Below, one piece after another: positions 9,005 through 50,987 of a stretch of DNA of 64,000 nt (position 1 is the first letter of the stretch; every line of letters starts with the position of its first letter). The DNA is from Erysipelothrix urinaevulpis (lineage in GTDB: Bacteria > Bacillota_I > Bacilli_A > Erysipelotrichales > Erysipelotrichaceae). The notes beneath the pieces were generated by a model. The model did not search any database. It was not told the origin of the DNA and was given only the letters and a program-made list of their open reading frames with translations. The stretch is taken from assembly GCF_009828835.1 (NCBI RefSeq), contig NZ_WTTB01000002.1, positions 248,001-312,000 on the forward strand, given 5' to 3'. Made by a program: the position numbers and the translations under genes.

Positions 9005-9990
9005 TTAGCTGGTAATATTTTAACACGAATATCATTTGCTATTTCTTCTTGTATCGCAGGATTTTCTTCTAAGAATGTACGAACAGCTTCTCGACCTTGA
9101 CCGATTCGTTCTTCTTTATAAGAATACCAAGAACCACTTTTATCAATCAAGTCATATTCAACACCTAAATCAATGACTTCTCCAAGATAACTAATTCCTT
9201 GTCCATACACGATTTCAATTTGAACCTTTTTAAACGGAGGTGCAACTTTGTTTTTTACAACACGAATATTAGCCTTATTACCAAAAACATCTTGGCCTTG
9301 TTTCATTTGTTCTCCACGACGAATGTCTAAGCGTACAGATGAATAGAACTTAAGTGCACGACCACCTGGTGTAGTTTCAGGATTACCAAACATAACCCCA
9401 ACTTTTTCACGTAACTGATTAATAAAAATCGTTGTACATTCAGATCGATTCATTGCCCCTGACAATTTTCTCATTGCCTTGGACATCATACGAGCTTGTA
9501 AACCAACTTGAGCATCGCCCATTTCACCATCAAGTTCAGCTTGAGGCACAAGCGCTGCAACAGAGTCCACTACAATTAAATCAACAGCCCCTGAACGAAC
9601 TAAGACATCAACAATTTCCAAGCCTTGTTCACCACTATCGGGTTGAGAGAGAATTAATTCTTCAATATTGACACCTAAATTTCGAGCGTACAGTGGATCA
9701 ATTGCGTTTTCCGCATCAATAAACGCTGCTTTCCCGCCTGCTTTTTGACACTCAGCAATAGCATGCAAAGCGAGCGTTGTTTTTCCACTTGACTCAGGAC
9801 CAAAAATTTCAATGATCCTTCCTTTTGGATAACCACCAATTCCAAGTGCAGCATCAAGACTTAATGAACCAGAGCTAATCGCATCCACATCAACAGCACT
9901 GCGATCCCCTAACTTCATTATCGATCCCTTACCAAATTGTTTTTCAATTTGTTTTATTGCATCATCTAAAATTTTATCTTTTTTTTCCAT
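8998..9990 (-). CDS. recA: Recombinase RecA
   Basis: Strand-exchange ATPase for homologous recombination and SOS signalling, 330 aa, slightly shorter than the usual 345-350 because the acidic C-terminal tail is reduced. Walker A is GPESSGKT (near residue 64), Walker B is in [11 protein letters not shown], and loop L2 contains the conserved [17 protein letters not shown]. The start ATG has GGAGG upstream. It lies only 46 bases after pgsA and no LexA-type box or strong promoter is apparent in that gap, so it is probably transcribed from the rodZ promoter. The RecA modulator RecX is present elsewhere in the window as part of a fusion protein (48451-50424). Confidence 0.98.
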
Positions 9991-47522: not shown

Positions 47523-48461
47523 TTACTTAACACCTTTTGCTTTATAAAAATTTCGATTTCCTAACGCAAACATTCTTGGACTAAAACTTCCCTCTTCTTG
47601 ATCATCATAGAACTTTTCAAACATATTGGTTCGAGCGTCCATGTTATCAATGAAGTTCAGCATCTCGGCTTCTTTTGTTAACGGAACAACAGGTGAACCG
47701 TATTCCATCTCTCCGTGATGGGATAAGAGTAAGTGGCGCAACAAGAGTGTTTGTTCAGTATCTTCAAGCCCCAAATTACGAGCAATGTGAACAAGATTCG
47801 CATGCATGATTGAGATGTGACCCACAAGTTTACCTAACGGTGTGTACTCACTTAAAATCGGTGCGCTATATTCGTCAATTTTACCCATGTCATGAATTAA
47901 GACTCCCGCCATCAATAAGTCACGATTATAAATTGGATAGAGTTCACAAATTGAATTTGCTAATTTTGCCATACCATAGACATGACTTGCCAACCCTCCT
48001 ACAAAATCATGGTGATTTCGAGTCGCCGCTGGATATTGAAAGAACTTATCCCCATAAAACGCAAAACATCCGACAACTAAATCCTTTAAGATAGGATCTT
48101 CAATCGATTCGACAAATCCTGCAATTTCCTTTTTTAAAAATGTAATATCATACGAAGATGATTGCACAAATTCACTAAGATCAAAAGCATCTTGATCCAA
48201 AGACTTTGCCTGGTGAACGCGTAATTGTAAATTTTGTCGATACATCAGTACATCAGCATCAACCTCAACAATCATACCAACCTTTAAGATTTCTTCTTGT
48301 TCTGGCTTAACATCCCATAGTTTTCCTTCAATTTCACCAGTGTTATCTTGGAAATTAACTGATAAATAAGGCGCTCCATTTTGGGTCACACCTTTTGTGA
48401 CTTGTCCAACTAAAAGAGCAATCGTAACACGTTCTCCTTTTGTAAATTCTTTAATTTTCAT
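47523..48461 (-). CDS. yhaM: 3'-5' exoribonuclease YhaM
   Basis: 312-aa nuclease with an N-terminal OB fold (residues 1-95, around YLSVNFQDNTGEIEGKLWD) and a C-terminal HD domain (FVGGLASHVYGMAKLA, LIHDMGKIDEY, LLRHLLLSHHGEMEYG). It trims RNA 3' ends and single-stranded DNA in Bacillus and Staphylococcus. The start ATG 48461 lies inside the last codons of the glycosyltransferase-RecX gene, which provide AAGGAG, so the two are coupled. Length matches the family. Confidence 0.95.
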   Translation of the reverse strand: MKIKEFTKGERVTIALLVGQVTKGVTQNGAPYLSVNFQDNTGEIEGKLWDVKPEQEEILKVGMIVEVDADVLMYRQNLQLRVHQAKSLDQDAFDLSEFVQSSSYDITFLKKEIAGFVESIEDPILKDLVVGCFAFYGDKFFQYPAATRNHHDFVGGLASHVYGMAKLANSICELYPIYNRDLLMAGVLIHDMGKIDEYSAPILSEYTPLGKLVGHISIMHANLVHIARNLGLEDTEQTLLLRHLLLSHHGEMEYGSPVVPLTKEAEMLNFIDNMDARTNMFEKFYDDQEEGSFSPRMFALGNRNFYKAKGVK

Positions 48462-50424
48462 TCTCAAACTCCTTCATAATCTCTAAAACCATATCATAGT
48501 CATAGCCTTTTGATAAGGCATGGCGTATGACTCGGTTCTTCACTTCTTTTCCTTCATAGCGTCGCTCAAATCTGCTTTGAGCTTTAATCATTAAATCTCT
48601 AAGACTTTCTAACTCAAGTTCTTTTCCATAATCATCTGTTAAGTTATTAAGTATTTGACCAACATCATCAAAGCCATAACCCTGACGGACTAAATGTTGT
48701 TTTAAACGATCTTCACGTTGGCGAATTGACCCTGATGTTTGAGCTTGCATAAAGTTTTCTGCCCTTCTTACACCACGTTCAATATAGTTGTCATAGTCCT
48801 CGTTCTCTAAAATAGATAAGACTTCTTCTTCCTCATAACCTCGTTTGATCATATCTTCTAATATCCAATGATTTCCTCTGTTTTGATCCCGTAAATAATC
48901 AACACGATCATAAAGATATCGTTCATCATCAATAAAGCGTCGCTTCTCTAATAATTGAATAACGACCTTGATTTGATCTGGACTTAGTTCAGTCTTTTTG
49001 CTTAAGTACTCACTCATTTCAAAACTTGTGAAATCTTTCATACTAATTCTCTTTAACGCTAACTGATAACCTTCATAAATATTTTGATCTGCTTGTATTT
49101 CATCAATCTCATGACGAGACATTTCTTGACCAACCTCCAATTCTCTTTTTTCAAAAAGGATTGGGTCAACATACATTATTTCTTCATTCCCTTTTGAATC
49201 AAGTGTAATCGATACTTCATCACCCAAATCTTCAATTTCCGTAATTTCATAACGACCATAAAATACATCTAAAGCTTTTTGATAAACGTCTAATACCGCT
49301 AAACCAAACGCTTCACTGGAAAAACTTCCTGCTTTATTTAAAGCATTTTGTCTAAATACAGGTTCTAATTCTTCTTGGTTCTCAATATACTCCTGTGCTT
49401 TCACAACAAATTCATCACATGTTTCAAATAGAAACCCTGTTTCTTGATCAATAATAATTCCTTCCAAGGGTTCATCTGGGCGTGCAAAGACAGGCTTTCC
49501 ACACGCCAACGCTTCAATAAAGGTTAAACCTTGAGTTTCTGTTAAGGACGCTGAGGTAAATGCATCAGCAATGTGATAGTAATACGGAACATCATCGGAT
49601 GGAACAGCGCCAATAAACTCGACATCTTTTGATAGACCGCGTTTCTTCACATCAGCTTGTAAATCATCCATTGAAGGTCCTGCACCCACAATCAATAAGC
49701 GTGCTTTAGTCTTTGTTTTCAGCAAGGCATCAAACCCTTCAAGCACTACATCAATTCCCTTTTCTTTTGCTAATCGTCCAATATAGACAAAATGAAAAAT
49801 ACCCTCTTTAACATATTGAGATTTAATATCAAGAAGCTTTTCTTCATCAATATTTCTAAACCGTTCTAAATCTAATCCTGTTGGAATCACAACAATTTCT
49901 TTTTTAATGTCATAACCCATAAGCATCAACTTCGTTTTTTCAGAAGGTGCAATAATAATTTGTGATGATTTCGATAATGACCGACTCATTTTCGCTACCG
50001 CTTTTTTGGAAAATTGATCCATAATCTTCGATCCTAGAATATTGACATAATGAGTATAGTCTTCATAAGTTGTATGATACGTAGAAATCAGCGGAATACT
50101 CAACGTATTGGAAACATAGCGGGCAAATAAACCCACCCCAAATTCTGAGTGAACATGAATGACATCCAAATCCATTTCTTCAATAAAATCCATTGCTTGC
50201 ATATGGAGTGGACTCGACATCACATAACCATATAAAAACTTTAACTCTACACCTGGCAACCTTAAAATGTTATTGTCATACGATGTTTGAGTAATAGAGG
50301 GCTGATTCGTAACGATATAAACCGTGTGTCCCAACTTCTCCAATGCATTTTTCAGTGTCTTAATCGATATAACAACTCCGTTTATATCAGGTTCATAGGT
50401 ATCCGTAAATAATCCAATTCTCAT
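48451..50424 (-). CDS. GT4 glycosyltransferase-RecX fusion protein
   Basis: Single 657-codon frame holding two complete proteins. Residues 1-390 are a GT4 glycosyltransferase of the diacylglycerol glucosyltransferase type (MRIGLFTDTYEPDINGVVIS, GRLAKEKGIDVVLEGF, ASLTETQGLTFIEALACGKP). Residues 391-657 (nucleotides 48451-49254) match RecX, with the typical opening ITEIEDLGDEVSITLD, ALKRISMKDFTSFEMSEYL, RRFIDDERYLYDRVDYLRDQ, and a repeat of three-helix units to the end. RecX controls RecA filaments; GT4 enzymes of this kind add glucose to membrane lipid. No stop, frameshift signal or ribosome site is seen at the junction. It is coupled to yhaM and lies 57 bases after pyrR. Confidence 0.9.
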   Translation of the reverse strand: MRIGLFTDTYEPDINGVVISIKTLKNALEKLGHTVYIVTNQPSITQTSYDNNILRLPGVELKFLYGYVMSSPLHMQAMDFIEEMDLDVIHVHSEFGVGLFARYVSNTLSIPLISTYHTTYEDYTHYVNILGSKIMDQFSKKAVAKMSRSLSKSSQIIIAPSEKTKLMLMGYDIKKEIVVIPTGLDLERFRNIDEEKLLDIKSQYVKEGIFHFVYIGRLAKEKGIDVVLEGFDALLKTKTKARLLIVGAGPSMDDLQADVKKRGLSKDVEFIGAVPSDDVPYYYHIADAFTSASLTETQGLTFIEALACGKPVFARPDEPLEGIIIDQETGFLFETCDEFVVKAQEYIENQEELEPVFRQNALNKAGSFSSEAFGLAVLDVYQKALDVFYGRYEITEIEDLGDEVSITLDSKGNEEIMYVDPILFEKRELEVGQEMSRHEIDEIQADQNIYEGYQLALKRISMKDFTSFEMSEYLSKKTELSPDQIKVVIQLLEKRRFIDDERYLYDRVDYLRDQNRGNHWILEDMIKRGYEEEEVLSILENEDYDNYIERGVRRAENFMQAQTSGSIRQREDRLKQHLVRQGYGFDDVGQILNNLTDDYGKELELESLRDLMIKAQSRFERRYEGKEVKNRVIRHALSKGYDYDMVLEIMKEFENEN

Positions 50425-50439
50425 TATTTCCCTTCCTCT

Positions 50440-50478
50440 CTTGAAATAAAACCCCTGTTCATATCATAGGGGTTTTAT
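50440..50478 (-). terminator. Terminator of pyrR
   Basis: Perfect 11-bp stem ATAAAACCCCT/AGGGGTTTTAT (50446-50456 and 50468-50478); a T run of modest length on the minus strand follows. Confidence 0.8.
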
Positions 50479-50480
50479 AT

Positions 50481-50987
50481 TTAGAATAATAAAACTGCTT
50501 CGTCTTTATCATCTTCCACAAGTTTAACCCGAACTTTTTCATTTAAACTTGTTGGAATATTTTTCCCCACAAAATCAGCCCTTATTGGCAACTCACGATG
50601 ACCACGATCAACAAGTACTGCCAACTGAATTTGACGTGGACGACCATTGTAGACAATGCCATCCATCGCTGCCCGTGCCGTTCTTCCTTTATATAAGACA
50701 TCGTCAACTAAAACAACCACTCGATCTTGGACCGAAATTGGTAAACGAAATGCTTCACTGTCTGATTTCATATCATCTCGCCAATAACTAACATCTAAAG
50801 AAGCCACTGGCACATCTACATTTTCAAATTCTTTTAATAGTTTTGCCATTCTGAATGCTAAAGTTGCACCCCGAGTTTCAATCCCAAGTAAAACGACCTT
50901 CTCTAACCCTCTATTTTTTTCAATAATTTCATGGCACATACGTACCATTGAGCGTTTGATTGCATGCTCATCCATAATGATTTTCAT
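50481..50987 (-). CDS. pyrR: PyrR bifunctional regulator/uracil phosphoribosyltransferase
   Basis: 168-aa phosphoribosyltransferase-fold protein. In Bacillus it binds pyr mRNA in response to UMP and causes termination. The PRPP loop is VVLVDDVLYKGRTARAAMD (about 90-108), and LGIETRGATLA and DVSYWRDDM are also typical. Here it stands alone with a short leader of about 15 nt that has no room for a PyrR-binding attenuator, so it is probably not self-regulated that way. Its pyrimidine targets are outside the window. Confidence 0.93.
   Translation of the reverse strand: MKIIMDEHAIKRSMVRMCHEIIEKNRGLEKVVLLGIETRGATLAFRMAKLLKEFENVDVPVASLDVSYWRDDMKSDSEAFRLPISVQDRVVVLVDDVLYKGRTARAAMDGIVYNGRPRQIQLAVLVDRGHRELPIRADFVGKNIPTSLNEKVRVKLVEDDKDEAVLLF

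Follow-up and report, generated by a model that had tools for sequence, protein, structure and literature searches.

Enzymes of the monoglucosyldiacylglycerol-synthase family of glycosyltransferases (GT) work on the inner side of the membrane, and proteins of the RecX family limit RecA filaments. Neighbouring genes in bacteria can fuse, and such fusions can later undergo fission. Here we describe a gene, mgs-recX, in which a GT of family 4 (GT4) and a RecX share one reading frame. It lies in a stretch of 64,000 nucleotides (nt) from Erysipelothrix urinaevulpis (contig NZ_WTTB01000002.1, positions 248,001 to 312,000 of the forward strand), hereafter the window. We consider it probable that this gene produces one bifunctional polypeptide with two largely independent activities, which arose a single time from an overlapping mgs-recX pair. 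None of the papers listed in searches of the open-licence literature describes this fusion, as judged by titles and the starts of abstracts, which is not proof of it being unpublished, and the architecture may well appear in public domain databases; the RecX proteins in the available part of PMC11676981 come from other bacteria.

Domain content and distribution of the mgs-recX frame

The initial annotation proposed a single uninterrupted frame of 657 codons in which a GT4 enzyme is joined to a whole RecX. This was confirmed at 48451-50424 of the minus strand, and domain searches of both halves place GT4 over residues 1-385 and RecX over residues 391-657. Three Pfam domains score above their gathering thresholds: Glyco_transf_4 at residues 14-188, Glycos_transf_1 at 207-361, and RecX_HTH3 at 603-649. 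The first two correspond to the two-domain GT4 fold (PF13439, 95 bits for a gathering score of 28.5; PF00534, 117 bits for 26.4), and RecX_HTH3 reaches 39.7 bits versus a cut-off of 26. The Pfam models for RecX HTH1 and HTH2 report nothing in the window protein; in the fusion of a relative (locus L085), HTH1 and HTH3 are above cut-off and HTH2 is below. Against NCBIfam, residues 1-384 align with model positions 1-387 of 398 of the α-monoglucosyldiacylglycerol synthase NF049988 (261 bits), which we take to be the alMGS family, and residues 393-654 align with positions 6-264 of 267 of the RecX model NF010733 (114.5 bits). Both fall short of the respective equivalog cut-offs of 400 and 240 bits. 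An unfused GT that lies in tandem with recX (L066) also scores just 242 bits with NF049988, and the NF010733 cut-off is passed by none of 296 genomes of the class. By sequence, the two halves are clear homologs of these families, and because both scores lie under the naming cut-offs, the GT and RecX names hold at the family level only. A PDB sequence search gave GT4 enzymes for the first half and RecX (3e3v) for residues 437-596 (E 7e-7). There is no linker of the flexible kind between the halves.

A search of the window's own genome (93% complete) with the RecX half found no second RecX, the RecX model having a single match there, and recA is present (545 bits versus a cut-off of 325.3). Both halves are under continued constraint. 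Across 71 distinct fused proteins, H117, R217, K222, E296, and E304 of the GT half, presumably the EX7E and donor-site residues of GT4, are conserved without exception, and D500 of the RecX half is identical in all 71.

The initial annotation suggested looking for the same fusion in related genomes. It is open in 163 of the 195 genomes of the order, a count made up of 148 genomes with a match over both halves in a larger draw (four of these matches end at residue 601-632), plus 10 and 5 with full-length matches from other searches. Counted by eye, 52 of 60 relatives, the window's own genome included, have a full-length match. Among the 296 class genomes, all 35 full-length matches fall within the two families of the order, f1 (that of the window) and f2. 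Outside the order, no match among these 296 genomes extends past query residue 411, and among the matches listed in RecX searches of the class and phylum, no open frame exceeds 349 codons. A search of a further genome-contig collection returned one remote GT only, and viral contigs gave two matches, both confined to the GT (residues 1-314 and residues 5-334), with no fusion seen.

The 32 order genomes in which the fusion is not open are of several kinds. Three are cut by contig ends (G011, G566, and G057), and in one single-contig genome (G515, L130) the GT part is broken into separate frames, through either gene decay or sequencing error, which are indistinguishable. Four genomes have adjacent split GT and recX genes (G555, G585, G588, and G593), one has RecX attached to a probable GT remnant (G523), one keeps the GT with RecX not found (G544), and in one neither was found (G018). 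In 19 of the 195, RecX stands in its own frame and this type of GT is not adjacent; 14 of these loci were inspected, and the other five (G538, G601, G607, G609, and G612) are assigned from the absence of a strong GT match. In G028 and G283 (∼2.3 Mb, listed as 98-99% complete), neither the fusion, nor RecX, nor recA was found; since recA also lacks a match, these sequences are possibly unreadable or unusual.

Probable origin from an overlapping pair and reversals of the fusion

Outside the order, 88 genomes carry this type of GT, and RecX was sought in 80 of them. In 30 of the 80, recX lies directly downstream of the GT gene on the same strand, in 46 it is elsewhere, and in four it was not found. 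The tandem arrangement is confined to three families (23/24 genomes in f8, 4/4 in f10, 3/3 in f19, and 0/49 in other families), and one of the eight genomes left out of the RecX search (G109) is also tandem. All 12 tandem loci that were read have overlapping open frames, with yhaM after recX. In nine of the 12, the last GT codons contain GAGG followed 7-9 bases on by GTG, likely the recX ribosome-binding site and start. At the corresponding site of the 71 fused genes, a Shine-Dalgarno (SD)-like 4-mer is kept in two and both signals in none, and the GAGG-GTG pattern is absent from codons 375-394 of all 71. A GT tree built by a quick method unites all 71 fused rows in a single clade (SH-aLRT 85), with the 12 tandem rows beside it; GT genes that do not adjoin recX are apart from both. 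With overlapping tandem pairs in three related families and no fused gene that retains both start signals, the most likely course is that the fusion arose once, from overlapping genes brought into one frame, and that the old internal start then decayed. The lineage-specific gene joining that the initial annotation had envisaged is thus strongly supported, with the GT-recX pair of f8, f10, and f19 as its likely origin. A RecX topology test does not reject one clade that unites fused and stand-alone rows (p-AU 0.33).

The fusion has also been undone several times. In the RecX tree, unfused f1 rows are nested among fused rows, and a quick version of this tree has seven changes between the fused and unfused states, at least three of them forced by starred branches, when the G027 remnant described below is treated as unfused. 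We infer that the direction of these changes is loss of the fusion rather than gain. The split GT and recX genes of G555 and of three g45 genomes still overlap, and in G555 the RecX frame starts beyond the N-terminal part of RecX. G027 (L080:2299-3618) has a GT stretch of 26.5 bits over model positions 79-152 ahead of a whole RecX; this half is eroded to roughly 165 residues, starts with MRIG, and is in frame with RecX. In G523 (L136), ∼110 residues that also start with MRIG precede RecX; by eye they look like what is left of the GT, with no GT-model match of 15 bits in this segment. Together, G027 and G523 amount to a natural deletion series of the GT half. Across the genomes in which the fusion was undone, RecX is the half that is most often kept, and a GT kept without RecX was found once, in G544. 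The nesting of unfused among fused rows implies that the halves are separable, and the lineages in which RecX has outlived the GT half show that tying RecA to the membrane is not essential.

In three f1 loci where RecX stands alone (L077, L079, and L082), a gene of the HAD family lies upstream, identified by Pfam in L077 and alike by eye in L079 and L082, and yhaM is still downstream.

A probable single polypeptide and the alternatives

In the explanation that we favour, the N-terminal half would catalyse the first step of the glucosyl-diacylglycerol (lipoteichoic-acid anchor) pathway, and the C-terminal half would be the cell's RecX. The ancestor of the order would already have carried the overlapping mgs-recX pair with yhaM next to it, this pair would have been brought into one frame once, and the internal recX ribosome-binding site would have decayed after the joining. 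Each of the two modules probably works on its own. The fusion may be kept mainly for locked co-translation, i.e. a fixed 1:1 synthesis in place of coupled translation of two proteins. Placement of RecX at the membrane would be a by-product, and a membrane-tethered RecX is possibly a bonus of the fusion.

Several observations weigh against this explanation. Persistence in 163/195 genomes would be equally expected from selection for a joint function. The GAGG-GTG pattern is missing in three of the 12 tandem loci. The RecX-half tree, which is noisier than the GT tree, splits the fused rows into several pieces, and a single clade of fused rows alone is borderline in the topology test (p-AU 0.061). 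In the same RecX-half tree, the window's own genus sits on a long branch (1.29), and RecX function may have changed there. In addition, a start-like site at codon 435 makes a short second RecX product possible in the window's genus. The length of the junction is not exceptional. Among the 71 proteins, residues 375-400 have no insertions and a single 3-residue gap, in L103; as few indels are present in 44% of 26-residue windows and in 26% of those that are poorly conserved. A fixed junction length was therefore rejected as proof of a rigid functional unit, being too weak when 44% of windows are alike.

Among the alternatives, the one that survives best, although it is unlikely, is that the two halves work together: the GT half would anchor RecX at the inner membrane, relay the lipid state, and control RecA filaments or stores there. 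The initial annotation had stated that membrane and RecA functions have no known link, which is too strong: for Escherichia coli, PMC6363387 reports an association of RecA storage structures and bundles with anionic phospholipids of the inner membrane. In Mycoplasma, the glycolipid synthase MG517 adheres to the membrane, and anionic lipid vesicles regulate it (PMC6506492). Given such a membrane-adhering synthase and RecA at anionic lipids in E. coli, placement of RecX at the membrane would be plausible. Retention of the fusion in most genomes of the order and the absence of a flexible linker also favour such coupling. It is opposed by the 19/195 order genomes (14 observed and 5 inferred) in which RecX is in its own frame without this GT adjacent, by the reduction of the GT half to a remnant in G027 and probably in G523, and by the existence of re-split genes. 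A more specific form, in which the glycolipid-synthase half senses the lipid state (for example, anionic lipid or diacylglycerol) and thereby sets both the place and the strength of RecA filament dismantling by RecX, is rather unlikely. If true, it would link envelope synthesis to recombination and SOS control.

That the gene yields two proteins, through a protease cut or through a short RecX translated from within, is quite unlikely. In its favour, the window has GGAGGT ahead of an in-frame ATG at codon 435, which would yield a 223-residue RecX without the N-terminal part; the RecX frame of G555 lacks this part too, which suggests that the remainder can stand alone. Codon 435 is the commonest such site over codons 404-451 and is found in 8/71 sequences, namely six of the 11 from the window's genus, together with L020 and L021. 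A 6-base SD match together with ATG or TTG at this codon is present in six of the 11 genus sequences, four of which are closely related to each other. Between codons 404 and 451, 19/71 sequences, including six of the 11 from the window's genus, carry a start preceded by an SD-like 4-mer, and these starts are spread over many codons. Windows starting at codons 404-428 hold 14-18 such sequences, the highest values along the gene except for two windows near the main start (15 each). On the other side, an in-frame start preceded by an SD-like 4-mer lies within codons 375-410 in 3/71 fused genes, which is not above the background of 50 windows along the gene (mean 6.6 sequences of 71, standard deviation 3.8), the old recX start signals are lost in 71/71, and codon 435 is occupied in 8/71 only. 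The main start, by comparison, is preceded by a 4-base SD-like match in 64/71. An internal start at the junction was therefore rejected as a general rule, since no gene keeps both signals and 3/71 have a start at codons 375-410. Translation from within, as raised in the initial annotation, is thus unlikely as a general rule, and it may occur at codon 435 in the genus.

It is very improbable that the RecX half is a functionally decaying passenger. RecX is the faster-evolving half (mean pairwise identity across fused proteins of 0.28 versus 0.47 for the GT half), and its branch is long in the window's genus. However, the faster evolution of RecX relative to GT is common to fused and tandem pairs. 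At a given GT identity, in the three bins that hold at least seven tandem pairs, RecX identities for fused/tandem pairs are 0.21/0.22, 0.24/0.25, and 0.34/0.30. With fused and tandem pairs similarly conserved, passenger decay of RecX is not supported; D500 is invariant, and RecX is usually the half that survives when the fusion is undone.

Finally, a sequencing or assembly artefact, i.e. a missed stop or frameshift at codons 385-395, which the initial annotation had named as grounds for refutation, is effectively refuted by 71 distinct fused proteins that are all open frames and by the presence of the open fusion in 163/195 genomes; nothing in the window points to one, and elsewhere in the order the GT frame is broken in a single genome (G515).

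Gene neighbourhood and comparison with known systems

The features of the locus are listed in Table 1. The initial annotation had coupled the fusion to yhaM, which is borne out as a gene overlap: the yhaM ATG sits within the last codons of the fusion, preceded by its own SD-like site. yhaM is directly downstream in 70/71 fused loci, mostly overlapping, and just 140 downstream bases were available for inspection in the 71st. The yhaM-like protein scores 335 bits against the 3'-5' exoribonuclease model (cut-off 460). Upstream is a phosphoribosyltransferase gene that is presumably pyrR. The inverted repeat between this gene and the fusion, ∼20 bases before the fusion start, is probably a terminator (maybe of the pyrR-like gene) or an attenuator; it is absent from the output of a hairpin scan limited to loops of 3-8.

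Table 1. Features of the mgs-recX locus and the recA gene in the window
Feature	Position	Strand	Basis or remark
mgs-recX fusion gene, 657 codons plus stop	48451..50424	-	Open reading frame and domain matches
GT4 half, residues 1-385, monoglucosyldiacylglycerol-synthase-like	49270..50424	-	Pfam and NCBIfam
Junction, residues 386-396; includes the GT stop position of unfused tandem relatives	49237..49269	-	
RecX half, residues 391-657	48454..49254	-	Pfam, NCBIfam, and PDB sequence match
Possible internal start: GGAGGT, 10 nt, in-frame ATG at codon 435	49120..49138	-	
SD-like AGAGGAAGGG upstream of the fusion ATG	50430..50439	-	Read in sequence
yhaM-like gene, OB fold plus HD domain	47523..48461	-	11-nt overlap with fusion 3' end
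AAGGAG, SD-like site of yhaM within the fusion gene	48469..48474	-	
Inverted repeat, then T-rich stretch on the minus strand	50447..50477	-	Read in sequence
pyrR-like phosphoribosyltransferase gene, upstream neighbour	50481..50987	-	Pfam Pribosyltran
recA, presumed RecX target	9025..9981	-	∼40 kb from the fusion, within the window

Elsewhere in the order, the fusion can have glycolipid genes as neighbours. In L085, an iagA/bgsA-type glycolipid GT that scores above its cut-off comes first and is followed by a flippase-like membrane protein, then by the fusion and yhaM. As judged by eye, a membrane protein with a similar start lies just upstream in many other fused loci, and a flippase-like membrane protein is also present in the tandem locus L066. 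The window's own genome has the iagA/bgsA-type partner away from the fusion (505 bits versus a cut-off of 460), and the flippase-like family was not found in this genome.

GT4 enzymes of this type also occur in other combinations. In genus g98 of f8, the enzymes of L083 (G117) and L084 (G325) carry an N-terminal part of ∼255 residues, with recX elsewhere; the part in L084 has weak matches to α/β-hydrolases (Hydrolase_4 and Abhydrolase_2) that are below cut-offs. In G560 (L151:1277-3115), the GT4 has a C-terminal VTT membrane domain (residues 481-596), and RecX stands alone in the genome. A second, unfused GT copy is present in L105, L106, and L107 (f2, genus g29), and a quick tree groups it with three GT genes of f12, which suggests that it was possibly gained horizontally.

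Compared with described systems, the first half of mgs-recX resembles the GT4 monoglucosyldiacylglycerol synthases of NF049988 in its match over residues 1-384 and its retention of EX7E and other conserved residues, and the fusion of L085 adjoins an operon gene for an iagA/bgsA-type GT. It differs in reaching 261 of the 400 bits and in carrying a RecX half. The second half resembles RecX (NF010733; 3e3v) over residues 393-654 and is the only RecX found in its genome, but it reaches 114.5 of the 240 bits, the HTH1 and HTH2 Pfam models are silent, it lacks a separate start at the junction, and it is joined to a membrane-lipid enzyme. One practical consequence is a warning for annotation, as the RecX of this order is often hidden inside a "glycosyltransferase". 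The locus also offers a natural setting in which membrane-tied RecA control becomes testable.

The closest relatives, the unfused mgs-recX-yhaM loci of related families, share gene order and partners with the fusion locus. They differ in having two overlapping frames, in which recX seems to start at a GTG or ATG inside the 3' end of the GT gene. Since living relatives preserve a pair of the ancestral type, together with a decayed internal start and several reversals, the history is unusually complete. As in neighbour-gene fusions generally, adjacent co-directional genes were joined and reversals followed. Unlike in those, one partner belongs to glycolipid synthesis and the other to the control of RecA, and the two are not steps of one pathway, which makes mgs-recX a clear case of two overlapping genes from unrelated processes turning into what would be one protein.

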